In this document: in pieces, positions 1,409-34,291 of the stretch
How the letters are laid out: each line of letters begins with the position of its first letter
How positions within the stretch are numbered: position 1 is the first letter of the stretch
Assembly: GCF_900111925.1 (NCBI RefSeq)
Contig: NZ_FOKA01000003.1
Coordinates: forward strand, 1 to 64,000
Direction of reading: 5' to 3'
DNA from: Cellulomonas marina
GTDB taxonomy: Bacteria > Actinomycetota > Actinomycetes > Actinomycetales > Cellulomonadaceae
Length of the DNA stretch: 64,000 bases
The notes under the pieces: model-generated
Seen by the model: the letters and a program-made list of their open reading frames with translations, nothing else
Databases searched by the model: none
Told to the model about the DNA's origin: nothing
Translations under genes and position numbers: made by a program

Positions 1409-2113
1409 TCAGGGCTGGAAGGACCAGTGCCACGACTCGCGCGGGGTGTCGGCGACGAAGCCGTACCGGCCCGCGTTCTGCTGCATCCACGCCTGCGCCT
1501 TCGCGTCCAGGTCGAGGTCGACGGCCATGCCCCACCCGTGGTCGCTCGTGCCCGGCGCGGCGGCGAGGCCGCCCTGCGAGTACAGGCCCTTGCGGTTCGC
1601 GACGTCGACCTGCGCGGCGTAGGAGCGGTAGGAGTCGGTGATGCCGATGCCCACGCCGTCGGCCTTCGCGGCGGCGAGGAGCTGCTCGAGGCGCTGGGCC
1701 GCCGGCGCCCAGAGCCGGTGCCCGGTGCTGCCGACGCCCGCCAGCGCCGACTCCGGGATCTTGCCGTTGCCGTACGCCGCCAGCGCCGCCGGCACCTTGC
1801 CGCCCCCGAGGCGGGTGACGGAGCTGGACCAGGCGATGTCGCCCAGCCCCGCGCCGGCCGTCGTGGTGGCGCCGCCGCCGGGCACGACCCCGGCGAGACC
1901 CGCGAGGGAGGCCGTCGACCCCGTCGACCCGCCGGACGACGCGCTCGTCGTGCCGCCGAGCGCAGCGGCGAGCTCGCCGGCGAACGCCGCGGATCCTGTC
2001 GAGGTGCCCCACGACGAGGCGCTCGTCGCCGCCGTCGGCACCGTCACGGGAGGCGCGGCCATCAACGACCGGATCTCCGCCAGCCGCCCCGCGATCGCCT
2101 CGATGCCGCTCAT
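1409..2113 (-). CDS. M15 family D-Ala-D-Ala carboxypeptidase-like protein, last gene of the flagellar operon
   Basis: A 234-residue predicted zinc peptidase of the M15/VanY family, expected to cut peptidoglycan stem or cross-link peptides. Visible family motifs are TDSYRSYAAQ, the metal site SDHGWGMAVDLD and the C-terminal ESWHWSF, at about residues 165-234. The ATG at 2113 has a GGGAGG ribosome site. The first 20 residues (MSGIEAIAGRLAEIRSLM) and a following FAGELAAALG segment resemble the amino end of flagellar transglycosylase proteins in actinobacteria. No signal peptide is evident, so secretion through the flagellar export route is plausible. It follows flgE by 277 bp. I infer a FlgJ-like role in opening the wall for the rod or hook; its substrate is not shown by the sequence. 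Confidence 0.8.
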   Translation of the reverse strand: MSGIEAIAGRLAEIRSLMAAPPVTVPTAATSASSWGTSTGSAAFAGELAAALGGTTSASSGGSTGSTASLAGLAGVVPGGGATTTAGAGLGDIAWSSSVTRLGGGKVPAALAAYGNGKIPESALAGVGSTGHRLWAPAAQRLEQLLAAAKADGVGIGITDSYRSYAAQVDVANRKGLYSQGGLAAAPGTSDHGWGMAVDLDLDAKAQAWMQQNAGRYGFVADTPRESWHWSFQP

Positions 2114-2390: not shown

Positions 2391-3575
2391 TCACCGCTTG
2401 AGGTTGATGAGCTCCTGCAGCACGTCGTCGGACGTGGTGATGACGCGGGAGTTCGCCTGGAAGCCGCGCTGGGCGACGATGAGCGAGGTGAACTCGCTGG
2501 AGAGGTCCACGTTCGACATCTCGAGCGCGCCGCCCGTGAGCGTGCCGCGGCCGCCGGTGCCGGCGGTGCCGATCTGCGCGGCGCCGGAGTTGGCGGTCGT
2601 GGCGAACAGCGAGCCGCCGGCCTTCTCGAGGCCGCCCGGGTTGGTGAAGCTGCTCATCGCCATGCGGCCGATGACCTGCTTGAGGCTGTTGCTGAAGGTG
2701 CCGGTGATCGTGCCGTCGGCGCCGAGGCTGAAGGCCTGCAGCTCGCCCGCGTCGTAGCCGTCCTGGCTCGCGACGGCCACCGACGTGACACCCGCGAACG
2801 ACGTCAGCCCGGTGACCGCGACGGTCACGGGCGTCGTCGAGCCCAGCGTGATCGGCGCGGTCGTCGTCAGCTCGCCGTCCGTGAACGCCAGGCTCGTCGT
2901 GGGGGAGGTCGCGGTGCCGTCGCTGGCGACGAGGTCCCAGCCGGCCGCGGTCCGCGTGAAGCCGAGGGTCAGCGTGCGCTCGTTGCCCTCGGTGTCGTAG
3001 GCCTTCGTGGTGCGCTCGATGAGCGTCCCCACGGTCGCGTCGGCGGGCAGGTTGCCGGCCAGCGCCGCGTTCTGCGTGGCCTTGGCCTGCATGAGCGTGC
3101 CGACCGGCACCTTGAGGTCCGACAGCGGGGCGTTGGTGTCGACGACCCCGTTCACGGCCATCCAGCCCTGGACCTTCGCGCCCTCGCCCGGCAGGACCAT
3201 CTGCCCGGTCGAGTCGAAGTCGAAGTTGCCGGCGCGCGTGAAGAAGTCCGTGCCGCCCTTGCTGACGACGAAGAACCCGTCGCCCTGGATCATCATGTCG
3301 GTGCTCTTGCCGGTGAGCTGCGACGAGCCCTGCGTGAAGCTCGTGCTGATGCCGGCCAGCTTCACGCCGAGGCCGACCTGCGCCGGGTTGGAGCCGCCGA
3401 TGCCGTCCTGCGCCGCGGCCCCGGACTTGACCATCTGGCTGAGCGTGTCCTGGAACGCCGTCTGCGAGGACTTGAAGCCCGTCGTGTTGACGTTGGCGAT
3501 GTTGTTGCCGGTGACGTCGAGCATCGTCTGGTGGGCGCGCAGGCCGGAGATGCCGGAGAAGAGCGAGCGGAGCAT
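2391..3575 (-). CDS. flgE: Flagellar hook protein FlgE
   Basis: A 394-residue hook protein. The N-terminal flagellar rod/hook motif (LDVTGNNIANVNTTGFK, about residues 20-36) and the C-terminal motif (SLIVAQRGFQANSRVITTSD) are both present. A DGFFVVSKGG segment near residue 100 is typical of FlgE/F/G proteins, and the middle holds the usual variable FlgE domain. It polymerises outside the cell into the curved hook and is exported by the flagellar type III apparatus. It starts at an ATG with a GAAGGGA site, 83 bp after flgD, and is the last structural gene of the operon. Confidence 0.96.
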   Translation of the reverse strand: MLRSLFSGISGLRAHQTMLDVTGNNIANVNTTGFKSSQTAFQDTLSQMVKSGAAAQDGIGGSNPAQVGLGVKLAGISTSFTQGSSQLTGKSTDMMIQGDGFFVVSKGGTDFFTRAGNFDFDSTGQMVLPGEGAKVQGWMAVNGVVDTNAPLSDLKVPVGTLMQAKATQNAALAGNLPADATVGTLIERTTKAYDTEGNERTLTLGFTRTAAGWDLVASDGTATSPTTSLAFTDGELTTTAPITLGSTTPVTVAVTGLTSFAGVTSVAVASQDGYDAGELQAFSLGADGTITGTFSNSLKQVIGRMAMSSFTNPGGLEKAGGSLFATTANSGAAQIGTAGTGGRGTLTGGALEMSNVDLSSEFTSLIVAQRGFQANSRVITTSDDVLQELINLKR

Positions 3576-3658: not shown

Positions 3659-4108
3659 TCAGGCCGTCGTGGCGGTGGTGACGGTCGTGACCTCGTCGAG
3701 GCCGAGGGTGGCGGTGCCGACGGTGACCTTCGGCGTGCCCGCGCTGTAGGAGACGGCGGAGACCAGCCCGCTCGTCGTGGTGCCGTCCGCGGCGGTCCAG
3801 CTCACCTGGCGCCCGACGAGCGAGGCGCCCGCCATGCGCATCTGCAGCGCGTACTGCTCGGTGCTGGTCTTCCGGAGGGCCTCGAGGCTCTCCATGCTCG
3901 ACAGCTGCGTGGTCTGGGTCATGAGGTTCGAGGAGTCCATGGGGCTGCTCGGGTCCTGGTTCTTCAGCTGCGCGACGAGCAGCTCGAGGAACGCCTGCTT
4001 GTCCAGCGTCCCGTTGTCGGCCCTGCTCGTGCCCGACGAGCCCGTCGGGCCGGCGGCCGCGGCCGTGCGCGGGGCCGTCAGCGACGAGACGGAGATCTCG
4101 GTGGTCAT
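3659..4108 (-). CDS. flgD: Flagellar hook capping protein FlgD
   Basis: A 149-residue hook-assembly scaffold. The conserved FlgD block LDKQAFLELLVAQLKNQDP, followed by SPMDSSNLMTQTTQLSSMES, lies at about residues 35-75. The rest is short, so this is a compact FlgD lacking a large C-terminal tudor/FnIII domain; a small beta-rich tail (VSWTAADGTTTSGLVSAV) remains. The ATG at 4108 has an AGGAGG ribosome site. It sits between fliK and flgE, the usual order for hook construction genes. Confidence 0.92.
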   Translation of the reverse strand: MTTEISVSSLTAPRTAAAAGPTGSSGTSRADNGTLDKQAFLELLVAQLKNQDPSSPMDSSNLMTQTTQLSSMESLEALRKTSTEQYALQMRMAGASLVGRQVSWTAADGTTTSGLVSAVSYSAGTPKVTVGTATLGLDEVTTVTTATTA

Positions 4109-4196: not shown

Positions 4197-6263
4197 TCAC
4201 AGGTCCACCTCCAGCCCGCCGCCGGGCCCGACGAGGGACCGGCGGCCCGTCGGGCCCTCGGCGGTGCCCGGGCCGTCCACCGCGCGGCCCCCGTGGCCGG
4301 CGCGACCCGCACGCGCGGCCGCGAGGTCACCCGCGGAGGTGCCGCGCCCGTCGCCCGCACCGGTCCCCTGGCCGCTCGAGCCCTCGGTCCCGGTGCGGCC
4401 GCTGCCGGCACCCAGGTCCACATCGGCACGCAGGCCGCTCTGCCCGAGGTCACGACGCAGGTCGTTCAAGGACTGGCGCAACGCGTCGCGGGTCGCGTCC
4501 GACGCCCCGAAGAGCTCGATCCGCACCCCCTCGGGTCCGATGTGGGCGACGATGCGCGCCTCCCCGAGGCTGATCGGGTCGAGCGGCACGGTCAGCACGT
4601 GCGTGCCGTTGCCCAGCCCGCCGACGTGCGCGAGCCGCGCGCCGAGCTGCTCGGCCACGGGCAGGGCGGTCCCCGCCGCGCCCGGGTGGGCCGGCACGGG
4701 GGTCGCGGGAGCGGCCGCGGCAGTGGTGGCGGAGGTCGCCCCCGAGGTGCCCGGGGCGCCCGCCCCGGCGCCGACGGCCTGCGCCACGAGGTCGAAGGCC
4801 GCACGTCCCGCGTCCGTGGCGACGCCACCTGCCTGCGCGCCGGCCGTGCCGGTGCCCGGTCCGGTCGTCGGCCCCGCGCCCGCGGTGCTCACGCCGCCGA
4901 GGGGGGCGGGCCCGCCGAGGCCGGTGCCGGCCGGCACGACGCCCGTCCCCGGTCCGCCCGTGGCGGTCGCGGCGGCGGCATGGGCGGCGTGGGTGGCGGT
5001 CGGGGAGCCCGCGGCGGGACCGCCGGCGGCGCTCCCCTGCCCTGCGGCGCCCGAGCCCTCGGCGCCGCGACCGGCCGGGTCGTCACGGCCGGTGTCGGTC
5101 CCCGTCCCGGCGGCGGTCACGCCGCCCGCCGTGGCCGTGGCGGCGCTCGAGCCGGACGCTGTGCCGGACGCTGTGCCGGAGGCGGTGCCGGACGCGGTGC
5201 CGGACGCGGCGGTGCCCTCCGCGGCGGTGCCGGTCGCAGCGACGCCGGAAGGGGACGTGTCCGCCGTGGTCGCCGCGGCCCCGCCGGCCGAGGCCCCGGC
5301 GGTCGCCGTGGCAGCCGCACCGGCACCGGCGGTCGAGGTGGTGGTCGAGGCGGTGGTCGAAGGGCTCGGCAGGACGGCCGACGCGGTGGTCGCCGTGGTG
5401 GCCGACGCGGCGGCGCCGGGCGCGGTCGTCCCGGTCGCACCCGTGGCACCACCGGCCGCTGCGGCGACGGCCGCCGCGCCGGTCGTCGTGAGGGCGGCCG
5501 TGCTCGCGCCGGCGGGGTCGCCCGCACCGGCGACGAGCGCACCGGCCGCAGCCGTGCCGTCGACGGGGTGGTCGACGGACGCCGTGCCGCCCCGACCGGC
5601 GGCACCGTCGGCGGCGACCCCGGCGTCAGCACCGGTCCCCGCGCCGGGCGAGCCGGCCGAGCCGCCGGTGCCGCCGGAGCCGGGACCCGAGGGGCGGTCC
5701 TCGGGGCTGGGGCGGTCGTGGGCAGGGCGGTCGTGGGCGGGGCGGTGGTGGGTGGGGGCAGTCGTCACGTCCTGCCCGGTGCCGGGCCCGGCCGGGTCAC
5801 ACCGGTCGGAGACCCGATCGGGAGCGCGATCGGGAGCGCGGTCGGGAGCGCTGTCGGAGACACGGTCGGAGGTGCGGTCCGTGGTGCGGTCCGTGGTGCG
5901 CTCCGTGGTGCGGTCCGTGCTGCGACCGGCAGAGCGCTCGGCGGGACGCCCGGCCCGGCCGCGGACCTCGTCGCCGCGCCCGTCCGTCCCGGCAGGGCCG
6001 CGGTGCGCGCGGCCCTCGTCGAGCCGCGCGGTCGACGCGCGCCGCGGACCGGCGCCGACGTCCGCCGGGTCCACCGGGGACGGTCGACGACCCGTGCCGG
6101 CGCGACCGGTCCCCCGGACCGTGCCGCGGTCCTCCGCAGCGGCGCCCAGCAGGTCGGCGAACACGTCGGCGCGCGCCGACGCGGCCGCGTCGGGACGGCC
6201 GCGATCGGCGGTGGCCCCGGCGGGTGCGCCGCCGCGCACGAGGGGCACGGTCGTGCTGCTCAC
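4197..6263 (-). CDS. fliK: Flagellar hook-length control protein FliK
   Basis: A 688-residue protein whose last 170 residues carry the FliK C-terminal (Flg_hook) domain, seen in NGTHVLTVPLDPISLGEARI and the following VRIELFGASDATRDALRQS. The first 500 residues are low-complexity Ala/Gly/Thr/Pro with internal short repeats (runs of GTAS and of SDR/PDR units), which is normal for the molecular-ruler part. FliK measures hook length and switches the export gate from hook to filament substrates. The GTG start at 6263 has an AGGAGG site and overlaps the fliJ stop by 4 bp, so translation is probably coupled. Confidence 0.88.
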   Translation of the reverse strand: MSSTTVPLVRGGAPAGATADRGRPDAAASARADVFADLLGAAAEDRGTVRGTGRAGTGRRPSPVDPADVGAGPRRASTARLDEGRAHRGPAGTDGRGDEVRGRAGRPAERSAGRSTDRTTERTTDRTTDRTSDRVSDSAPDRAPDRAPDRVSDRCDPAGPGTGQDVTTAPTHHRPAHDRPAHDRPSPEDRPSGPGSGGTGGSAGSPGAGTGADAGVAADGAAGRGGTASVDHPVDGTAAAGALVAGAGDPAGASTAALTTTGAAAVAAAAGGATGATGTTAPGAAASATTATTASAVLPSPSTTASTTTSTAGAGAAATATAGASAGGAAATTADTSPSGVAATGTAAEGTAASGTASGTASGTASGTASGSSAATATAGGVTAAGTGTDTGRDDPAGRGAEGSGAAGQGSAAGGPAAGSPTATHAAHAAAATATGGPGTGVVPAGTGLGGPAPLGGVSTAGAGPTTGPGTGTAGAQAGGVATDAGRAAFDLVAQAVGAGAGAPGTSGATSATTAAAAPATPVPAHPGAAGTALPVAEQLGARLAHVGGLGNGTHVLTVPLDPISLGEARIVAHIGPEGVRIELFGASDATRDALRQSLNDLRRDLGQSGLRADVDLGAGSGRTGTEGSSGQGTGAGDGRGTSAGDLAAARAGRAGHGGRAVDGPGTAEGPTGRRSLVGPGGGLEVDL

Positions 6264-6715
6264 GGTGTCCTCCTGTCGTCATCACGGTCGGTCCCGCCAC
6301 CGGCCGGCGCCCGGCCGGCGATCTCGTCGAGCACGAGCTGCTCCGCGCGCAGGTCCTCGGCGCGCACCTGCTCCGCGTGCCGCTCCGCCAGCCGCTCCAC
6401 GGCCCGCGTCTCGCGGCGTGCCAGCGTCCATGCCTCCTGGGCGACGGCGACCTCGTCGTCGGCCGCGACCAGCTGCACCCGGCGCTCCCCGAGCAGCGCG
6501 CCCAGCGCGGCCCGCCCGGCGACCCCCGCCTGCCACAGCCGCACGTCGGCGCCGTCGGGCATGCCGGACGCGGCGAGGTCGGACTCGGCCCTCGCGAGCT
6601 GCGTCGCCGCCGCCCCGCGCACGGCGCGGGTCTGCGCGAGCCGCCCCGCGGCCCGGTCCTCGGCCATGCCGCGCAGCCGCAGCAGCCCGGCGAGGGAGAA
6701 CGTGCGCGCGGCCAT
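6260..6715 (-). CDS. fliJ: Flagellar export chaperone-like protein FliJ
   Basis: A 151-residue, nearly all-helical, Arg/Glu/Ala-rich protein starting MAARTFSLAGLLRLRGMAED, which resembles the FliJ amino end. Two long amphipathic helices with heptad character fit the FliJ coiled coil that contacts the FliI ATPase ring and FlhA. Sequence identity in this family is low, so the call rests on size, helical form and position directly after fliI (1-bp overlap, TGATG) and before fliK. Confidence 0.82.
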   Translation of the reverse strand: MAARTFSLAGLLRLRGMAEDRAAGRLAQTRAVRGAAATQLARAESDLAASGMPDGADVRLWQAGVAGRAALGALLGERRVQLVAADDEVAVAQEAWTLARRETRAVERLAERHAEQVRAEDLRAEQLVLDEIAGRAPAGGGTDRDDDRRTP

Positions 6716-8262
6716 CACAGCTCCCCGAGCGCGGCGGCCAGGGCGCCGAGGCGCCCCCACGAGTCGGCGGCGGGCGCGCGCTCGTCCATCCGCTGCTGGA
6801 GGAACGCGTCGATCGCGGCGCCGTGCTGCACGGCCGCGTCGACGAGCGGGTTCGACCCCGCGGCGTACGCGCCCACGTCGAGCAGGTCCTGCGCCTGGCG
6901 CCGGGCGGCCATGACGGCGCGCAGCCGGCGGGCGACCTCGCGCTGCTGCGGCGTCGTCACGCGGGACGCGACGCGGCTGATCGACCCCAGCGCGTCGACG
7001 CTCGGGAAGTGCCCGGAGGTCGCGAGGCGGCGGTCGAGCACGACGTGCCCGTCGAGGATCGACCGCGCGGCGTCGGCGATGGGCTCGTTGTGGTCGTCGC
7101 CGTCGACGAGGACCGTGTAGAGGCCGGTGACGGATCCCGTGGCACCCGTGCCGGCGCGCTCGAGCAGCCGCGCCAGCAGGGCGAACGTGCTCGGCGGGTA
7201 GCCGCGAGTCGCCGGCGGCTCGCCGACGGACAGCCCGATCTCGCGCTGGGCCATGGCCACGCGCGTGAGCGAGTCCATCATGAGCACCGCGTGGCGCCCC
7301 TGGTCGCGCAGCGACTCGGCGATGCGGGTGGCGACGAACGCGGACCGCAGGCGGACCAGCGGCGGCTCGTCGGACGTGGCGACGACGACGACCGATCGGG
7401 CCAGGCCCTCGGGGCCGAGGTCGTCCTCGAGGAACTCGCGGACCTCGCGCCCGCGCTCGCCGACGAGGGCGATGACCGACACCTCGGCGTCGGTGCCGCG
7501 CGCGATCATCGACAGCAGCGACGACTTGCCGACGCCCGAACCGGCGAACAGGCCGAGGCGCTGCCCGCGGCCGACCGTGACGAGGGTGTCGAGCACCCGC
7601 ACGCCGAGCTCGAGGGGCGTGTCGACCCGCGCGCGCTCCAGCGGGTGCGGCGCGTCGCCCTCCACGGGTAGCCAGGCCTCCGCGCGCAGCGGGCCCTTGC
7701 CGTCGATCGGCCGGCCGAGCCCGTCGAGCACGCGGCCCAGCAGCCCGGGGCCGACGGGCGCCCGCAGCGACCGGCCGGTCGCCCGCGCGGGCGTGCCGGC
7801 GCGCAGGCCGTGCACCGTGCCGAGCGGCATGCAGCGCGCGAGGGTCCCCGTGGTGGCGACGACCTCGGCCTGCACGGCGTCGGTCCCCTCCCCCACGACG
7901 ACGACCTCGCCCACCGCCGCACCCGTCCCGGCCACCTCGATGCCGAGCCCGACCGCGCTGCGGACGGTGCCCGTCAGCTCGGGGCCGGCGGCGGTGACGG
8001 CACGCGCCCAGCGGGCGCGCGTCGCGACGGGGGGCAGCGGCAGCGGACGCAGCGCGACCGCGGGACGGGTGGTGGCGGGCAGCGTCCCGAGCAGCGCCGC
8101 GCCGGCCGCGGGCTCCCCGTCGGCCGGTCCGGAGGCGAGGCCGGCGAGCGGGCCGGCCGGCGTCGGCAGGACGCCGGGCGCGGCGGGCACGCGGGCGGCC
8201 GGGGCCGCCGCCTGCGCCGCGGCCACGAGCTCGGCCAGCGGCCCCGGGACGACCGGGGTCAC
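6715..8262 (-). CDS. fliI: Flagellum-specific ATPase FliI
   Basis: A 515-residue F1-beta-like ATPase that energises the flagellar export apparatus. Walker A AGSGVGKS is at residues 240-247, Walker B HAVLMMDSLTR about 80 residues later, and the type III ATPase signature GYPPSTFALLARLLERAG follows. Family members are about 440 residues; here the extra length is an Ala/Pro-rich amino extension of about 75 residues. The GTG at 8262 has a GGGGAGGA site and overlaps the fliH stop by 4 bp. A later in-frame start could remove part of the extension. Confidence 0.95.
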   Translation of the reverse strand: MTPVVPGPLAELVAAAQAAAPAARVPAAPGVLPTPAGPLAGLASGPADGEPAAGAALLGTLPATTRPAVALRPLPLPPVATRARWARAVTAAGPELTGTVRSAVGLGIEVAGTGAAVGEVVVVGEGTDAVQAEVVATTGTLARCMPLGTVHGLRAGTPARATGRSLRAPVGPGLLGRVLDGLGRPIDGKGPLRAEAWLPVEGDAPHPLERARVDTPLELGVRVLDTLVTVGRGQRLGLFAGSGVGKSSLLSMIARGTDAEVSVIALVGERGREVREFLEDDLGPEGLARSVVVVATSDEPPLVRLRSAFVATRIAESLRDQGRHAVLMMDSLTRVAMAQREIGLSVGEPPATRGYPPSTFALLARLLERAGTGATGSVTGLYTVLVDGDDHNEPIADAARSILDGHVVLDRRLATSGHFPSVDALGSISRVASRVTTPQQREVARRLRAVMAARRQAQDLLDVGAYAAGSNPLVDAAVQHGAAIDAFLQQRMDERAPAADSWGRLGALAAALGEL

Positions 8263-9035
8263 GACAGGTCCTCCCCGCGCAGCGCGGCCAGCGCCCGCGC
8301 GAGGCCCTGCTCGATGCGCGCGTCCAGCAGCCCGTCGGCGTGCTGGCCGACGGCGTCGCCGGGCTGCAGCGAGGGGTCCGCGACGACCGTCACCCCGGCG
8401 TCCGCCGGCACGGCCCCGACGGCCTCCAGCGCCGCGACGTCCCGCGGGTGCAGGCGCACGAGCACCTCGGCCGGCCGCTGCGGGTGGTCGAGCACGCGCG
8501 CGAGCGCGGCCCGGGCGGAGTGCTCCGCGTCGTCGAGCTCACGGCCGAGCACGGCCTGCGCGAGCTCGACGGCGGCGCCGAGGAGCCCGTCCTCCGCCGA
8601 CGCCAGCACCGGTGCGGCCGCCCCCTGCGCGGCAGCAGCGGCGCGGTGCAGGACGGCCAGCGCCGCCTGCACGGCCTCGTCGCGCAGCGCCTCGCGCTGC
8701 GCCGCCCGCGCACGGGCCAGCTCGGTCTCCGACGCGGCGACGCGCGCCGCCTCGCGGGCCCCGGCCGCGTACCCCGCCGCGAAGCCCTCGGCCCGGGAGC
8801 CGGCGTCGACGGGCGCGACCGGGGTGACGGGCACGTGCCGGAAGGGCTTCGCCGGCGCGGCGCCGGGGGCTGCGCCGGCGGTGGCGACCGCGGCGGCCTC
8901 GGCGACGGGCGTCCCGAAAGTCCCCGCCGCTCCCCCGGCCCGCTCCGGCTCCGGTGCACCGGCCTGCTGCGGGACGGTGGACGCCCCGGCGGGCGCGGGC
9001 ACCGGCACCGTCGCGACGAACGGTCGGTCAGACAT
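8259..9035 (-). CDS. fliH: Flagellar assembly protein FliH
   Basis: A 258-residue stator-like regulator of the FliI ATPase. The amino third is Pro/Ala-rich; the centre (about 85-135) is a charged helix with AGAREAARVAASETELARAR; the C-terminal part (LRGEDLS end, EVLVRLHPRDVAALEAV) matches the FliH/YscL globular domain. It lies between fliG (8-bp overlap) and fliI (4-bp overlap), which strongly supports the assignment. Confidence 0.88.
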   Translation of the reverse strand: MSDRPFVATVPVPAPAGASTVPQQAGAPEPERAGGAAGTFGTPVAEAAAVATAGAAPGAAPAKPFRHVPVTPVAPVDAGSRAEGFAAGYAAGAREAARVAASETELARARAAQREALRDEAVQAALAVLHRAAAAAQGAAAPVLASAEDGLLGAAVELAQAVLGRELDDAEHSARAALARVLDHPQRPAEVLVRLHPRDVAALEAVGAVPADAGVTVVADPSLQPGDAVGQHADGLLDARIEQGLARALAALRGEDLS

Positions 9036-10035
9036 ACTCGTCGTCCCCCTCGCGGCTGATCACGATCTGCCCGCTCTCCTCCAGGCCTCGGATGGCCTGG
9101 ACCACGCCGGCCCGGGCCTCCTCGACCTGCGACAGGCGCGTCGGGCCGAGCAGCTCGATCTCCTCCAGCAGGTTCTCGCGCGCCCGCTCGGACAGGTTGC
9201 GCAGGACCTTGTCCCGCACCTCGTCCGACGTGCCCTTGAGGGCGACGGACAGCGAGGACGTCTCGACCTGCCGCAGCACGAGCTGCATGGCGCGGTCGTC
9301 GAGCAGCGTGATGTCCGCGAAGACGAACATGAGGCTGCGCACCTGCTCGGCCAGGCCCTCGTCGCGGTTGCGCAGGCCCTCGAGGATGATCTTCTCGGCG
9401 CTGGGCCCGGCCCGGTTGATGATCTCGACGAGGGGCTGCACGCCGCCGACCGCCGCCATCTCCTTGGGCGTGAGCACGGCCGATGCCTTGCGCTGCAGCA
9501 CCTCGGCGATCGTCGCGACGACGTCCGGCATCGCCCGTTCCATGAGCGCGATGCGGTGCGCCACCTCCGCCTGCATGTCGGCGTCGAGCGCGCCCAGCAC
9601 GCCCGAGGCCATCTCCGGGCGCAGGTGCGCGAGCACGAGCGCGACCGTCTGCGGGTGCTCCCCGTCGAGCAGGGACAGCACCTGACGGGCGTCGGCCTGC
9701 TGGAGGAACTCGAACGGCTGCGGCGCGAGCGTGGCCTGCAGGCGCTGGAGCACGTCCGCGGCCTGGTCCCGGCCGAGGGACGCCTCGAGCAGGTGCTGCG
9801 CGAGGCCCACGCCGCCGCCGATGCCCGGGCCGGCGGCGGTGACGTCGTAGAACTCCTCGAGCACCTGGTCCGCGAGCGCCTGGTCGACGTGCTGCAGGCG
9901 CAGGATCTCCGCCGTCAGCTCCTCGATCTCCGCGAGCTCCATCCGCGCCATGACCTTGCCGGCGCGCTCCTTGCCGAGCTGCAGCAGGAGCATCGCGGCC
10001 TTCTGCGGACCGGTCAGGGTCGCCACCGCGCTCAT
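9028..10035 (-). CDS. fliG: Flagellar motor switch protein FliG
   Basis: A 335-residue rotor protein at the cytoplasmic face of the MS ring. It begins MSAVATLTGPQKAAMLLLQL, carries the middle-domain EHPQ motif at 126-129 (EHPQTVALVLAHL), and ends with the charged torque helix region (TLLDDRAMQLVLRQV, then SDEVRDKVLRNLSERAR) that meets the MotA stator. The ATG at 10035 overlaps the fliF stop (ATGA). Length is normal for FliG. No stator or other switch gene is in the window. Confidence 0.96.
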   Translation of the reverse strand: MSAVATLTGPQKAAMLLLQLGKERAGKVMARMELAEIEELTAEILRLQHVDQALADQVLEEFYDVTAAGPGIGGGVGLAQHLLEASLGRDQAADVLQRLQATLAPQPFEFLQQADARQVLSLLDGEHPQTVALVLAHLRPEMASGVLGALDADMQAEVAHRIALMERAMPDVVATIAEVLQRKASAVLTPKEMAAVGGVQPLVEIINRAGPSAEKIILEGLRNRDEGLAEQVRSLMFVFADITLLDDRAMQLVLRQVETSSLSVALKGTSDEVRDKVLRNLSERARENLLEEIELLGPTRLSQVEEARAGVVQAIRGLEESGQIVISREGDDEYV

Positions 10036-11624
10036 CGCCGGGCCCCCGGCTCGGACAGCCAGCCGCGGAGGAGCTCGGCCATCTCGGCCGGGTTCTCGTC
10101 GGCCATGGCGCTGATCTCCTCGCGGCGGCGGCGCGCGGGGTCGTCCTCGTCGTCCGCGCCGCTGCCGATGGCGCGGACCTCGCTGGCGTCCAGGGCCTCG
10201 AGCGCGGCGCGCTCGGCGTCCTGGCGGGCGGCGAGCTCGCCGAGGTCCAGCGCCTCGCGGCGGGCCTTCTTCGAGCGGCGCGCGCCGGCGATGACGAAGC
10301 CGATGACGAGCAGGAGCACGAGCCCGCCGGCGGCGGCCTGCGTGATGAGGGTCTTCTGCGCCTCCGCGGCGGCGGCCTCGTCGGCGGCGGCCAGCGCCTC
10401 CTGCGCGGCGGCGGCGGCCGTGGTGTCGAAGGGCAGCTGCTGCACCGCGAGGGTGTCCCCGCGGGCCGCGTCGATGCCCGCCGCGGCGGCCAGCGTCGTC
10501 TGGAGCTGGGCCATGTCGATCCCGGCCGCGACCGTGGAGTCGACCGCCACCGCGACGGACTGCCGCGCCACGGCGCCGGCGGGCGTCGAGGTGGTCTCCG
10601 TCGTCTTGTTGATGGCGTTCTGGACGTCCTCCGTGACGTTGGAGTAGTCGCCGGTGCCGGTCGTGCCGTCGCCGCCCGGGACCGCGATGTTGTCCGGCCC
10701 CAGGACGCCCGTGGCGCCGGCGCCGCCCGTGCCCGTGTAGGTCTCGTTCGTCGTCGACGAGGCCAGCGGCCCCACGTCCGGCGTCTGGGTGAAGGTCTCC
10801 GTCGTGGTCTCCGAGTTCGAGGAGTCGACCTCGGCCGTGACGGTCACCGCCGACTTGCCGGCGCCGAGCACCTGGTCGAGCAGGGACTGCAGGTTCGCGG
10901 CGACCTTCGTCTCGTAGTCCGACGCCTGGTCCGACGACGAGCCCGTCACGCCCGTGCCGATCGCCGAGAGCACCTTGCCGCCCGCGTCGACGACCGCGAC
11001 GTCCGTCGGCTCCATGCCCTCGATGCCGGCGGAGACGAGGTGGACGATCGCCTGCACCTGGTCGTCGGTCAGCTCCGCGCCGGCGCGGGTGCGGACGAAG
11101 ACGGACGCCGTCGGGTCGGCCTTCGTCGAGGCGAACACCGTCTCCTCGGGGATGGCGAGCTTCACGGACGCCGTCTCCACGCCGGACATGGCCTCGATCG
11201 TCTTGGCGAGCTCGCCCTGCAGCGCGCGCTGGTACGTCGTCTTCTGCTGGAAGTCCGAGGACGTCATGGGCATGCTCTCGAGGAGCGAGTACCCGTCGCC
11301 GCCGCTCTCCGCGGGCAGGCCCGCCGCGGCGACCTTGATGCGCTCCGCGTAGATCTTGTCGGTGGGGACGAGGATCGTCGTGCCGCCGTCGGCCAGCTCG
11401 TAGGTCACGCCGTCGGCGGTGAGCTGGTCGGTGATCGCGCTGGCGTCCGCGGGCGTGACGCCGCTGAACAGCGGCCCCATCGTCGGCGTGGACAGCCAGC
11501 CGTAGACGGCGAACCCGCCGAGCGCGAGCACGGCGACGCCGATGATCGCCAGCGTGCGCTGGGCCAGCGAGAACTGGGACACCGCCCCGCCCATGCGGCC
11601 GAGGACGGACTTCACGGCGGCCAT
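10032..11624 (-). CDS. fliF: Flagellar MS-ring protein FliF
   Basis: A 530-residue membrane-ring protein. Transmembrane segments are visible at about residues 24-43 (LAIIGVAVLALGGFAVYGW) and 428-447 (AGGLVLLLVIGFVIAG). Between them lie the ring-building motifs, including PLFSGVTPADASAITDQL, and a long Gly/Thr-rich loop around residues 280-330. The cytoplasmic tail ends ENPAEMAELLRGWLSE, the FliG-binding helix. The start overlaps the fliE stop by 1 bp. Confidence 0.96.
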   Translation of the reverse strand: MAAVKSVLGRMGGAVSQFSLAQRTLAIIGVAVLALGGFAVYGWLSTPTMGPLFSGVTPADASAITDQLTADGVTYELADGGTTILVPTDKIYAERIKVAAAGLPAESGGDGYSLLESMPMTSSDFQQKTTYQRALQGELAKTIEAMSGVETASVKLAIPEETVFASTKADPTASVFVRTRAGAELTDDQVQAIVHLVSAGIEGMEPTDVAVVDAGGKVLSAIGTGVTGSSSDQASDYETKVAANLQSLLDQVLGAGKSAVTVTAEVDSSNSETTTETFTQTPDVGPLASSTTNETYTGTGGAGATGVLGPDNIAVPGGDGTTGTGDYSNVTEDVQNAINKTTETTSTPAGAVARQSVAVAVDSTVAAGIDMAQLQTTLAAAAGIDAARGDTLAVQQLPFDTTAAAAAQEALAAADEAAAAEAQKTLITQAAAGGLVLLLVIGFVIAGARRSKKARREALDLGELAARQDAERAALEALDASEVRAIGSGADDEDDPARRRREEISAMADENPAEMAELLRGWLSEPGARR

Positions 11625-11965
11625 CAGGCCTGCATCCGCAGGATCTCGGTGAACGCCTCGACGGCCTTGTTGCGCACGGCCGCGGTGAGCTCGAGCGCGG
11701 TGGCCGCGCGGGCCGAGGCGATCGTGTAGTCGTGCACGTCGGAGAGGTCACCGGTGACGGCCTTGACGGCCAGGTCGTTCGACGTCGCCTGCAGGCCCTG
11801 CAGGCTCTCCACGGAGCCGAGCACGGAGGCGAAGCCGGCCCCGCTCGTCGAGGGGACGCCGGCCGCGCCGGCGGCGCCGGTCACGTCCGGGCCGTCGAGG
11901 TAGCCGGTGGGGGCGACCGGGGCGACGGCCCCGATGGCGCCGATCGCGGACAGGGGCGTGCTCAT
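11624..11965 (-). CDS. fliE: Flagellar hook-basal body complex protein FliE
   Basis: A 113-residue adaptor between the MS ring and the rod. After a variable amino end, the conserved FliE part begins GAGFASVLGSVESLQGLQ and ends with ASARAATALELTAAVRNKAV followed by EAFTEILRMQA, which is diagnostic. Its ATG overlaps the flgC stop and its stop overlaps the fliF start, each by 1-4 bp. Confidence 0.94.
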   Translation of the reverse strand: MSTPLSAIGAIGAVAPVAPTGYLDGPDVTGAAGAAGVPSTSGAGFASVLGSVESLQGLQATSNDLAVKAVTGDLSDVHDYTIASARAATALELTAAVRNKAVEAFTEILRMQA

Positions 11966-12363
11966 CAGCTGCGTCCGATCTGCAGGGCTGCCTGGTACTG
12001 CTCCTTGGCCCGGTCGATCACGGCGGCGCTGGCCTGGTAGCCGCGCTGGGCCATGATGAGCTGGGTCATCTGGCTGGAGAGGTCGATGTCGGGGTAGCGG
12101 ACGTACCCGCCCTCGTCGGCGAGGGGGTTGTCGGGCTCGTACACGAGCCGGCCCTCCGGGTCGCCGAAGCGCGCACCGGCCACCTGCACGCCGCCGTCGC
12201 CGGAGGTGATCTCCTGCGCCACGACGTAGCGGGCGCGGAACGCCTCCTCGGACGTCGCCGTGACGGTGTTGATGTTGGCGATGTTGTCCGACACGGCGTC
12301 GAGCCACTTGCGGTGCACCGTGAGGCCGGTGCCGGCGACGCCGATCGCCGCGAAGATGCCCAT
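11965..12363 (-). CDS. flgC: Flagellar proximal rod protein FlgC
   Basis: A 132-residue rod protein. The amino motif WLDAVSDNIANINTV (about 19-33) and the C-terminal motif MTQLIMAQRGYQASAAVIDR are those of FlgC; YVRYPDIDLSSQM just before the latter is also typical. The ATG at 12363 overlaps the flgB stop. It is second gene of the operon. Confidence 0.96.
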   Translation of the reverse strand: MGIFAAIGVAGTGLTVHRKWLDAVSDNIANINTVTATSEEAFRARYVVAQEITSGDGGVQVAGARFGDPEGRLVYEPDNPLADEGGYVRYPDIDLSSQMTQLIMAQRGYQASAAVIDRAKEQYQAALQIGRS

Positions 12364-12710
12364 CAGGAGGTCCGCATGGCGGCACGGATGGCGGTGAACT
12401 GCCCGCCGGCGGCCTGGGTCGCGAGCTGGTAGCGCAGCTGCGTGTCGATGTTCGACACCGTCTCGGTGTCGAGGTTGACGTTGTTGCCGTCCTCGCGCGT
12501 GGGCTCCAGGGAGCGCGCCACCGAGGCGGTGACGGCACCCGAGCCGTGGGCAACGGCGGTGCGGAGGCTGGCCTCGAACGCCACCCGGCGGGCGTGGTAG
12601 CCCGGGGTCTGCACGTTCGCGATGTTGTCCGCGATGACGCGCTGGCGGAGCGCCAGGCCGTCCAGCGCGCTGTCGAGCGCGACGGAGCTGACGGAGTCGA
12701 ACAAGCCCAT
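12363..12710 (-). CDS. flgB: Flagellar proximal rod protein FlgB
   Basis: A 115-residue rod protein with RQRVIADNIANVQTPGYHAR at about residues 22-41 and the FlgB C-terminal motif NVNLDTETVSNIDTQLRYQL. It is the promoter-proximal gene of a 12-gene operon that runs to 1409 with almost no gaps. A sigma-28-like promoter lies about 95 bp upstream at 12803-12830. Confidence 0.95.
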   Translation of the reverse strand: MGLFDSVSSVALDSALDGLALRQRVIADNIANVQTPGYHARRVAFEASLRTAVAHGSGAVTASVARSLEPTREDGNNVNLDTETVSNIDTQLRYQLATQAAGGQFTAIRAAMRTS

Positions 12711-33061: not shown

Positions 33062-34291
33062 TCAGTCCCCGAGCGCGCCGAGCACGCTGCGGGCACGCCG
33101 CACGCCGGCCAGGTAGGCGGTCGAGACGCGCAGGGCCGTGTGCGGCGGCGCGATGTCCGGCACCTCGTCGGCCTCCTCGGCGCGCAGGTAGGCGTCGAGC
33201 GCGTCGCAGGCGGCCGTGACGTCCGCCTCCGGGGTCGACCAGGCGAACCAGCCCTCGACGACCGTGCGGTCCTCCCCCAGCAGCTCCGAGACGAGGCGGA
33301 CCACCTGCTCCGTCGCCGCGGCACGCGGGTCCTCCGGGGCCAGCAGCTCCGCGGCCGCCGTGCGCGCCAGGCACCGCACCGCGAGGTCGTCGTCGGCGTG
33401 GCCGCTGGACCCCACGAGCTCGAGGACGAGCATGGCGCTCAGCCGCTCGCGCCCGAGCATGACGAGCGCCTGGTGCAGCGTGCGCACGCCGTGCCGGGCC
33501 CCCGCGACCGAGTTGCACGCGCGCAGCGCCTTGAGCGCCAGCGCCGGGTCGGCCGAGACGAGCTCGGTGATCTGCGGGAAGGACACGCGCGGGTCCGCGA
33601 GCTGGGCCAGCAGGCGCAGCGCGGTCGTCGCGCTGTGGTGCAGCGAGGTGCGGGCGACGACGGACGGGCGCCGCAGGTGGTAGCCCTGGAAGAGGTCGAA
33701 GCCCGCCGCGACGGCGTCGGCCAGGTCCTGCTCGGTCTCGATCCGCTCGGCGACGAGCTCGACGGGCCGTCCCGCCCCCGCGCGCAGCCAGTCGACCATC
33801 GCGGGCAGCCCGCCCGGCGGCACGTCGCGCAGGTCCACCTTCGCGAAGTCCGCCAGCGGCAGCAGCCCCGCCCGGCGGTCGCCGGGCACGACGTCGTCGA
33901 TGGCGATGCGGAAGCCCACCGCCCGCAGCGCCTCGATCCCCCGCACCACGGCCTCGTCGGGCTCCACGCGCTCGAGCACCTCCAGCACCACCTGGGCCGG
34001 GTCGAGCGGGACGGGCAGCTCCAGGGTGAGGAAGCGGCGCGGCAGGTTGACGAACAGCGGCACGTCGCCGGCCAGGTCGCGCGGGTCGAACTCCGTCGTC
34101 ACGGCGGAGATGACGCGCGCGGTCGCCACGTCGTCGTCGAAGGCCGCGCCCTCGCCCGCCACGACGGCGCGCGGGTCGGGGCGGAAGAGCAGCTCCTGCG
34201 CGCGCACGCGGCGGTGCGCGTCGTAGATCGCCTGCCGCGCCACGCAGACCACCTGGCTGCCCACGGGCAGCGCGGCGACGTCGAGCTCCAT
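33062..34291 (-). CDS. EAL and HDOD domain signalling protein
   Basis: A 409-residue EAL-HDOD protein. The EAL part (about 12-205) keeps many metal and substrate positions: RAQELLFRP (Glu), LFVNLP (Asn), VLEVLERV (Glu), IAIDDVVPG (Asp pair), FAKVDLRD (Lys), VAERIETEQD (Glu) and FQGYHLRRP (Gln). Loop 6 is altered (DDVVPG instead of DDFGTG), so activity is uncertain. The HDOD part runs about 210-400 (LVSADPALALKALRACNSVA, LHQALVMLG). A sigma-28-like promoter may precede it. Paralogous to the protein at 29839 but much better conserved. Confidence 0.87.
   Translation of the reverse strand: MELDVAALPVGSQVVCVARQAIYDAHRRVRAQELLFRPDPRAVVAGEGAAFDDDVATARVISAVTTEFDPRDLAGDVPLFVNLPRRFLTLELPVPLDPAQVVLEVLERVEPDEAVVRGIEALRAVGFRIAIDDVVPGDRRAGLLPLADFAKVDLRDVPPGGLPAMVDWLRAGAGRPVELVAERIETEQDLADAVAAGFDLFQGYHLRRPSVVARTSLHHSATTALRLLAQLADPRVSFPQITELVSADPALALKALRACNSVAGARHGVRTLHQALVMLGRERLSAMLVLELVGSSGHADDDLAVRCLARTAAAELLAPEDPRAAATEQVVRLVSELLGEDRTVVEGWFAWSTPEADVTAACDALDAYLRAEEADEVPDIAPPHTALRVSTAYLAGVRRARSVLGALGD

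Follow-up and report, generated by a model that had tools for sequence, protein, structure and literature searches.

The window, a stretch of 64,000 nucleotides from Cellulomonas marina, encodes a tagged M15/VanY zinc peptidase of 234 amino acids (1409..2113, minus strand), which was identified from its open reading frame, Pfam and an AlphaFold model. This protein is probably best read as an early substrate of flagellar type III export that carries a peptidoglycan-peptide hydrolase and would act in rod passage. An Fxxx-L motif in its amino-terminal region, together with the exchange of different wall enzymes in the flagellar operons of relatives, led to this reading.

The M15 gene and its flagellar locus

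The M15 open reading frame begins with ATG at 2113 and ends at 1409 on the minus strand, behind the gene run flgB-flgC-fliE-fliF-fliG-fliH-fliI-fliJ-fliK-flgD-flgE. The region 6715..12710 (minus strand) contains fliI, fliH, fliG, fliF, fliE, flgC and flgB, of which fliI, fliH and fliF were identified by Pfam, and fliG, fliE, flgC and flgB were assigned by gene call, reading, operon order and gene matches in relatives. The remaining genes, on the same strand, are fliJ (6260..6715; Pfam and gene call), which overlaps fliK by 4 bases, fliK (4197..6263; Pfam), flgD (3659..4108; Pfam and gene call) and, next upstream of the M15 gene, the hook gene flgE (2391..3575; Pfam). The spacing between flgE and the M15 gene is 277 bases in the window, about 25 in locus L036 and 130 in locus L035. 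No sigma-70-like promoter was found in this gap, a result of little weight in a GC-rich actinobacterium. A ten-base tandem repeat of 6 copies lies between the two genes (2124-2184), and a seven-base repeat of 12.7 copies lies past the M15 gene (1149-1237). An HDOD-EAL protein is encoded close to flagellar genes at 33062-34291.

The M15 gene had been described in the initial annotation as the last gene of the flgB operon, which turned out to be an accident of the contig edge. Base 1 of the window is also base 1 of contig C21, where a DUF222-type gene (1-545) lies between the M15 gene and the missing flbD. The fliP-fliQ-fliR-flhB-flhA genes of the same genome are located at the end of contig C20, which is cut inside fliP and has a matching direction. 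An assembly gap, and not the end of the operon, therefore most likely follows the M15 and DUF222 genes, and the M15 gene was rejected as the operon end. In Cellulomonas relatives, the M15 gene is located between flgE and flbD-motA-motB-fliL-fliM-fliN-fliO-fliP-fliQ-fliR-flhB-flhA, in some of them with a few intervening genes. The window genome encodes a second tagged M15 protein (C27:41023), which is 63% identical to the first.

Amino-terminal tag and gate-recognition-like motif

The amino tag comprises residues 1-18 (MSGIEAIAGRLAEIRSLM; 2060..2113, minus strand), with a predicted helix at residues 3-18, and was delimited by alignment, profile test and model. M15 rows start with the common pattern (G)I..(I/V)..R(I/L/M)..I, and in 46 rows R10 is invariant and I14 nearly so. 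A weight matrix built from 57 M15 starts only was used to score all 2,877 genes that had been called in the fetched loci. For the 2,740 calls without an M15 label, ranks 1 to 23 were all taken by wall-enzyme genes of flagellar operons, namely 21 NlpC/P60 calls, one SLT gene (L180) and one glucosaminidase-like gene (L179), which amount to fewer than 23 independent genes because L049 and L096 represent a single gene and L036 and L054 almost do so. The gene at rank 24 is unrelated, and the score drops there from 9.4 to 7.8. L179 has a second tagged gene, which ranked only 40th, and the tagged NlpC/P60 gene of L056/L149 was outside the ranking, having been labelled M15 by its tag; some other NlpC/P60 starts (L199, L201) had been fused or truncated by the gene caller. 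The domains of the tagged genes were checked by Pfam in a sample, and the glucosaminidase-like protein scored 18.5 bits, below the cut-off of 30.2. In L179 (8857-9910), the tagged glucosaminidase-like and NlpC/P60 genes are adjacent and located behind fliI and a fliJ-sized gene; this genome (G375) belongs to the same phylum as the window genome but to another class.

The search of genomes for the amino segment thus found it joined to M15, NlpC/P60 and SLT domains and, weakly, to glucosaminidase-like domains. The start had been called FlgJ/SLT-type, of which the SLT part stood, as the start is common to the SLT protein of L180, and the FlgJ part did not: the Pfam hits of the M15 protein at E<=1 included neither a FlgJ rod-binding domain nor a glucosaminidase domain, in a search that a very diverged rod-binding domain could escape. 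FlgJ homology of the amino segment was rejected for want of Pfam support.

The gate recognition motif of early flagellar subunits has the general form Fxxx-phi. A similar motif, F44-A-G-E-L48 (1970..1984, minus strand), was identified in a variable, A/S/T/G-rich linker of the M15 protein by alignment and by comparison with six early substrates. Fxxx[LIVM] is present in 62 of 63 M15 rows, with F at residues 34-61 (median 41). In the six early substrates encoded in the window, F-x-x-x-(L or Y) begins at residues 35-45 (FlgB 45, FlgC 42 as FRARY, FliE 45, FlgD 40, FlgE 41 and FliK 35), compared with 44 for FAGEL of the M15 protein. Within 90 residues the motif string is absent from FliF, FliG and FliI encoded in the window; FliH, which is not exported, has motif strings at 6, 40 and 85, and of the late substrates FliC has one at 54 and FliD has none.

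Across the loci, Fxxx[LIVM] starting at about residues 26-70 was found in 99/102 tagged M15 and 22/22 tagged NlpC/P60 proteins, and in 33/34 FlgD, 32/36 FlgE, 18/20 FliE, 7/8 FlgB and 21/29 FliK proteins. FlgC is a genuine early subunit, and most of its sequences do not have the LIVM form (present in 1/14). The background was 103/376 in non-exported flagellar proteins and 455/1,821 (25%) in other gene calls. Seventeen M15 calls that appeared untagged had mostly miscalled starts and were unfit as a motif control, and the four that seem truly untagged all lack the motif. Untagged NlpC/P60 proteins have it in 3 of 13 cases, in a set that includes miscalled starts.

Early subunits of Salmonella dock on FlhB through the gate recognition motif (FLTLL, residues 36-40 in FlgD), and the hydrophobic amino-terminal signal is read after this motif, from which it must be separated by 19 residues or more (PMC8983047). 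Hydrophobic residues of the M15 amino terminus are, by reading, I4, A6, I7 and A8, and F44 is 36 residues beyond A8, compared with the minimum of 19 in Salmonella FlgD. Judged by its sequence, the M15 protein has the two predicted marks of an early substrate, a gate motif at about residue 40 and a separated hydrophobic signal. These features, and the occurrence of one tag on several enzyme families, suggest that the amino segment is an export tag, as the initial annotation had proposed. The M15 protein would accordingly belong to the early (rod/hook-class) substrates of the flagellar type III export apparatus, its hydrophobic amino-terminal helix and the F-x-x-x-L about 40 residues in engaging FlhB and the export gate in the manner of FlgD, FlgE and FliK, and it would pass through the growing rod in an unfolded state and fold outside the membrane.

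Alternatively, an ordinary untargeted M15 enzyme might have drifted into the operon, with tag and motif arising by chance in low-complexity sequence, as the A/S/T/G-rich linker and the 25% motif background would allow. This alternative is strongly disfavoured and highly improbable, given the motif in 62/63 rows and in 99/102 tagged M15 proteins, the tag profile that places only wall enzymes of flagellar operons on top, and the near-exclusive occurrence of the enzyme in genomes with FlhA.

Distribution among relatives and exchange with other tagged enzymes

In the genomes of the window family, M15 was scored as present at a best E <1e-40, which is a proxy, the tag having been read in fetched loci only. 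Among 200 genomes of this family, 79 have M15, 100 have FlhA and 76 have both (FlhA in 76/79 M15 genomes versus 24/121 others; Fisher p 2e-29), and among 200 genomes of the Dactylosporangium/Actinoplanes family, FlhA is present in 51/51 genomes with M15 (E <1e-60) versus 11/149 others (Fisher p 4e-37); the association has the same direction in both families, and because the rows and genomes are related, these p-values are inflated and independence is overstated. One of the 62 FlhA-positive genomes of the Actinoplanes family (G790) was scored by a weak match, and weaker M15 matches that start beyond the tag, in two genomes lacking FlhA (G642, G674), were not counted as tagged. The three window-family genomes with M15 and no detectable FlhA (G028, G147, G175) are each in more than 400 contigs; the locus of G028 is clearly tagged, and that of G175 has a short start call. 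All 40 genomes picked for M15 outside the window family, from the best 80 of 227 loci, have FlhA, a set that overlaps the 51 and includes strains of one species. In a phylum sample of 396 genomes, the four best matches outside the window genome (G361, G457, G238, G387) are all in FlhA-positive genomes; of the next two, G274 has FlhA and an untagged protein at the fetched locus, and G516, with a strong match (4e-32) scored by its E value, lacks FlhA. The 24 FlhA-positive genomes of the window family without M15 indicate that flagella do not generally require M15.

The M15 gene is located within two genes of flgE or flbD in 17 of 115 distinct tree rows and elsewhere in 98, most of which stand alone. 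Several of these 98, in the g9 genomes, are about 10-27 kb from flhA, past response-regulator- and kinase-like genes. In L178, M15 has flgL on one side and a fliA-like gene on the other, as located by tblastn. The link to flagella in relatives for which the initial annotation had called is thus present, mostly by genome through co-occurrence with FlhA, and by operon adjacency in only the 17 of 115 rows. In the M15 gene tree, which was built from a 135-residue domain and is weakly resolved, the operon copies require two label changes and not one. Among the best 80 of 227 loci, M15 was found outside Cellulomonas in Georgenia, Sanguibacter, Oerskovia and Quadrisphaera, and in numbers in Actinoplanes, Dactylosporangium, Virgisporangium, Catenuloplanes, Couchioplanes and their kin. 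The zoospore habit is a trait of the genera named as carriers.

All 15 genomes of the window family that have FlhA, lack M15 and have a readable slot carry a tagged NlpC/P60 gene in the operon. In 14 of them it is located before fliK, behind fliJ or, where fliJ was unmatched, behind fliI; in L186 it lies exactly between flgE and flbD. The other nine of the 24 FlhA-positive genomes without M15 were either cut off or split at this place (G101, G160, G170, G174, G194) or outside the set (G036, G161, G168, G188), G168 and G188 being FlhA-positive by short, weak matches only. Six loci (L051, L090, L177, L178, L187, L189) were read by tblastn, as the gene caller is tuned to high GC, and L187 and L189 by hand. 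The slot between fliJ and fliK was readable in 15 of the 17 operon-borne M15 loci. Six of these 15 also have an NlpC/P60 gene there, in eight (the window among them) no gene was called, and L063 is ambiguous. Four genomes with a solo M15 gene (L199-L202) have NlpC/P60 in the operon.

In the window, the 4-base overlap of fliJ and fliK means that the NlpC/P60 gene present in this slot in many relatives is absent. No tagged NlpC/P60 or SLT gene was found in the window genome, in a search that was confined to these two families and to the assembled contigs, the gap between C20 and C21 being a place where a gene could still hide. Two NlpC/P60 proteins (L073, L074) and one SLT protein (L203, LysM-SLT) of this genome are all untagged, with signal-like starts by reading. 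The same tag would deliver NlpC/P60, SLT and glucosaminidase-like enzymes in relatives, and M15 alone, in two tagged copies, in the window genome. There is roughly an even chance that flagella of actinobacteria lacking FlgJ use a portable export cassette, consisting of helix and gate motif and fitted with M15, NlpC/P60, SLT or glucosaminidase-like enzymes, that their wall is opened via the peptides and not the glycan, and that M15 alone took over in the window lineage. One tag on different enzymes predicts that they can replace one another.

Solo tagged M15 genes were observed in neighbourhoods resembling heavy-metal or copper resistance regions in L033 (9688-10299, on C27 of the window genome itself), L034, L042, L045, L052 and L204; L204 (11647-12387) is on the Kineococcus linear plasmid pKRAD01 and is annotated as heavy-metal/copper, and the other loci were judged by reading. 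Others are near a class A penicillin-binding protein gene (L038, L039, L041, L043, L044, L046, L047), which was checked by Pfam in L039 and L043 and recognized by like starts in the others. Two or more tagged M15 copies occur in one genome.

These settings and copy numbers bear on the possibility that the tag is a signal for flagellar export and the enzyme a secreted lysin, released through the flagellar gate for competition or to turn over the wall in spores or during metal stress. Solo copies in copper and heavy-metal neighbourhoods, including the one on the Kineococcus linear plasmid, copies near penicillin-binding protein genes and multiple tagged copies per genome are consistent with such a function, which is nevertheless quite unlikely, as the copies in the operon slot and the tagged NlpC/P60 genes in 15/15 operons without M15 point to flagellar assembly.

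Catalytic domain and proposed role in rod passage

The M15/VanY catalytic domain comprises residues 94-234 (1412..1834, minus strand), with R163, Q168, S190, H192, D199, E226 and H229 as its key residues by Pfam, alignment and fold. Pfam VanY (M15) matched residues 132-233 with 2.9e-13 and 50.2 bits (cut-off 25), and no Pfam match was found ahead of residue 132. The motifs SxHxxGxAxD (S190, H192, D199) and ExxHW (E226, H229, W230) are complete, as the initial annotation had noted, and their listed residues, together with R163 and Q168, are invariant across 46 aligned rows. With the predicted zinc ligands H192, D199 and H229 and the predicted catalytic residue E226 all in place, the protein is assigned to the M15/VanY family, VanY being the type known from vancomycin resistance. 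Two narrower profiles scored below their cut-offs, Peptidase_M15_4 (L-Ala-D-Glu endopeptidases; 14.5 bits, cut-off 25) and, far below, NCBIfam LdcB (22.7 of 275 bits). Sequence relatives in the PDB are VanYB, LdcB and, weakly, Ply500.

The AlphaFold model has a mean pLDDT of 77, with 88-98 over most of residues 111-234 and 67-71 at 171-190, and contains two helices in its N-terminal part. In a comparison of residues 94-234, the model showed the LAS/M15 fold and best matched VanYB and BaLdcB (Z 12.9, rmsd 2.6-2.8, 124-128 residues, 28-29% identity), and more weakly Ply500 (Z 9.4) and ChiX (Z 7.0). Origin from a phage lysin was considered and rejected, since the 61 matching phage records are all less than 60% identical and none covers more than 80% of the query; identity is 34-42% in the ten listed, which align with the catalytic half only.

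The initial annotation's proposal that peptides and not glycan are the target is supported at the family level, by the predicted VanY fold. The set of active residues in this fold is common to carboxypeptidases and to L-Ala-D-Glu endopeptidases. By fold and by profile, the protein is nearest to carboxypeptidases (VanYB and LdcB), which trim stem peptides and need not cut cross-links. The active residues given for LdcB, R120, Q125, S151, H153, D160, E204 and H207 (PMC4087270), correspond to R163, Q168, S190, H192, D199, E226 and H229, in the same order and with the same spacing within motifs. The distance from R to S is 27 in the window protein versus 31 in LdcB, and the stretch from R163 to S190 is shorter than in both VanYB and BaLdcB, which may result in a more open cleft.

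The main alternative, which is unlikely to a lesser degree than the two above, is that the M15 protein is a flagellum-exported trimming carboxypeptidase, which removes stem-peptide ends round the basal body, so that fewer cross-links form or the motor anchor fits, while the rod uses pre-existing pores. Trimming would agree with VanYB and LdcB as the closest profiles and folds (Z 12.9 and 28-29% identity, compared with Z 9.4 for Ply500) and with the conservation of the residues with which LdcB binds zinc, performs catalysis and forms the site for the terminal D-Ala; Bacillus subtilis is said to manage without a lyase devoted to its flagella and to search its wall for holes (PMC12153297). The tag in related operons, however, carries NlpC/P60 and SLT domains, the shorter stretch from R163 to S190 may mean a more open cleft, and L-Ala-D-Glu endopeptidases use the same residue set. 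NlpC/P60 and SLT families cut the wall network.

As a peptide hydrolase for rod passage, the preferred reading, the exported M15 protein would use its zinc-dependent VanY/LdcB-type site to remove or cut stem-peptide residues, and the resulting local loosening of the wall would let the short actinobacterial rod and the hook pass. A 2023 survey of actinobacterial flagella reports three later classes to lack FlgJ, FlgF and FlgG, and raises the question of how a rod of such simplicity can be assembled and turn within a thick peptidoglycan layer; the words 'peptidase', 'hydrolase' and 'transglycosylase' do not occur in its main text (PMC10746217). No earlier description of a tagged M15 flagellar enzyme was found in the open-access literature. 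The tagged enzymes are named, deletable candidates for rod passage through thick peptidoglycan, and thick-walled flagellated actinobacteria may use tagged M15, or other enzymes with the same tag, for this purpose.

The M15 protein resembles the VanY and LdcB D,D- and L,D-carboxypeptidases (M15) in its fold, zinc and catalytic residues and the R/Q/S residues for the terminal carboxylate, and differs from them in having no Sec-type start (by reading), a type III secretion-like tag, a shorter stretch before SxH and a flagellar operon. The domains of FlgJ are reportedly plastic (Nambu 2006). With FlgJ, SltF and BB0259 the M15 protein shares the flagellar gene context and a presumed role in rod passage, but those enzymes are glycan-cleaving or SLT-type (PMC8517470), whereas the window enzyme belongs to a peptide hydrolase family and no FlgJ rod-cap domain was found in it. 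ChiX is likewise a LAS-family zinc peptidase of the same fold, which can act on peptidoglycan for a secretion system (PMC5778951), although that system is a different one and the fold match is weaker (Z 7.0). The tagged NlpC/P60 and SLT enzymes of actinobacterial flagellar operons found in this study have the same tag, the same F-x-x-x-L motif and the same operon as the M15 protein, and differ from it in their catalytic domain and in their usual slot, which is between fliJ and fliK.
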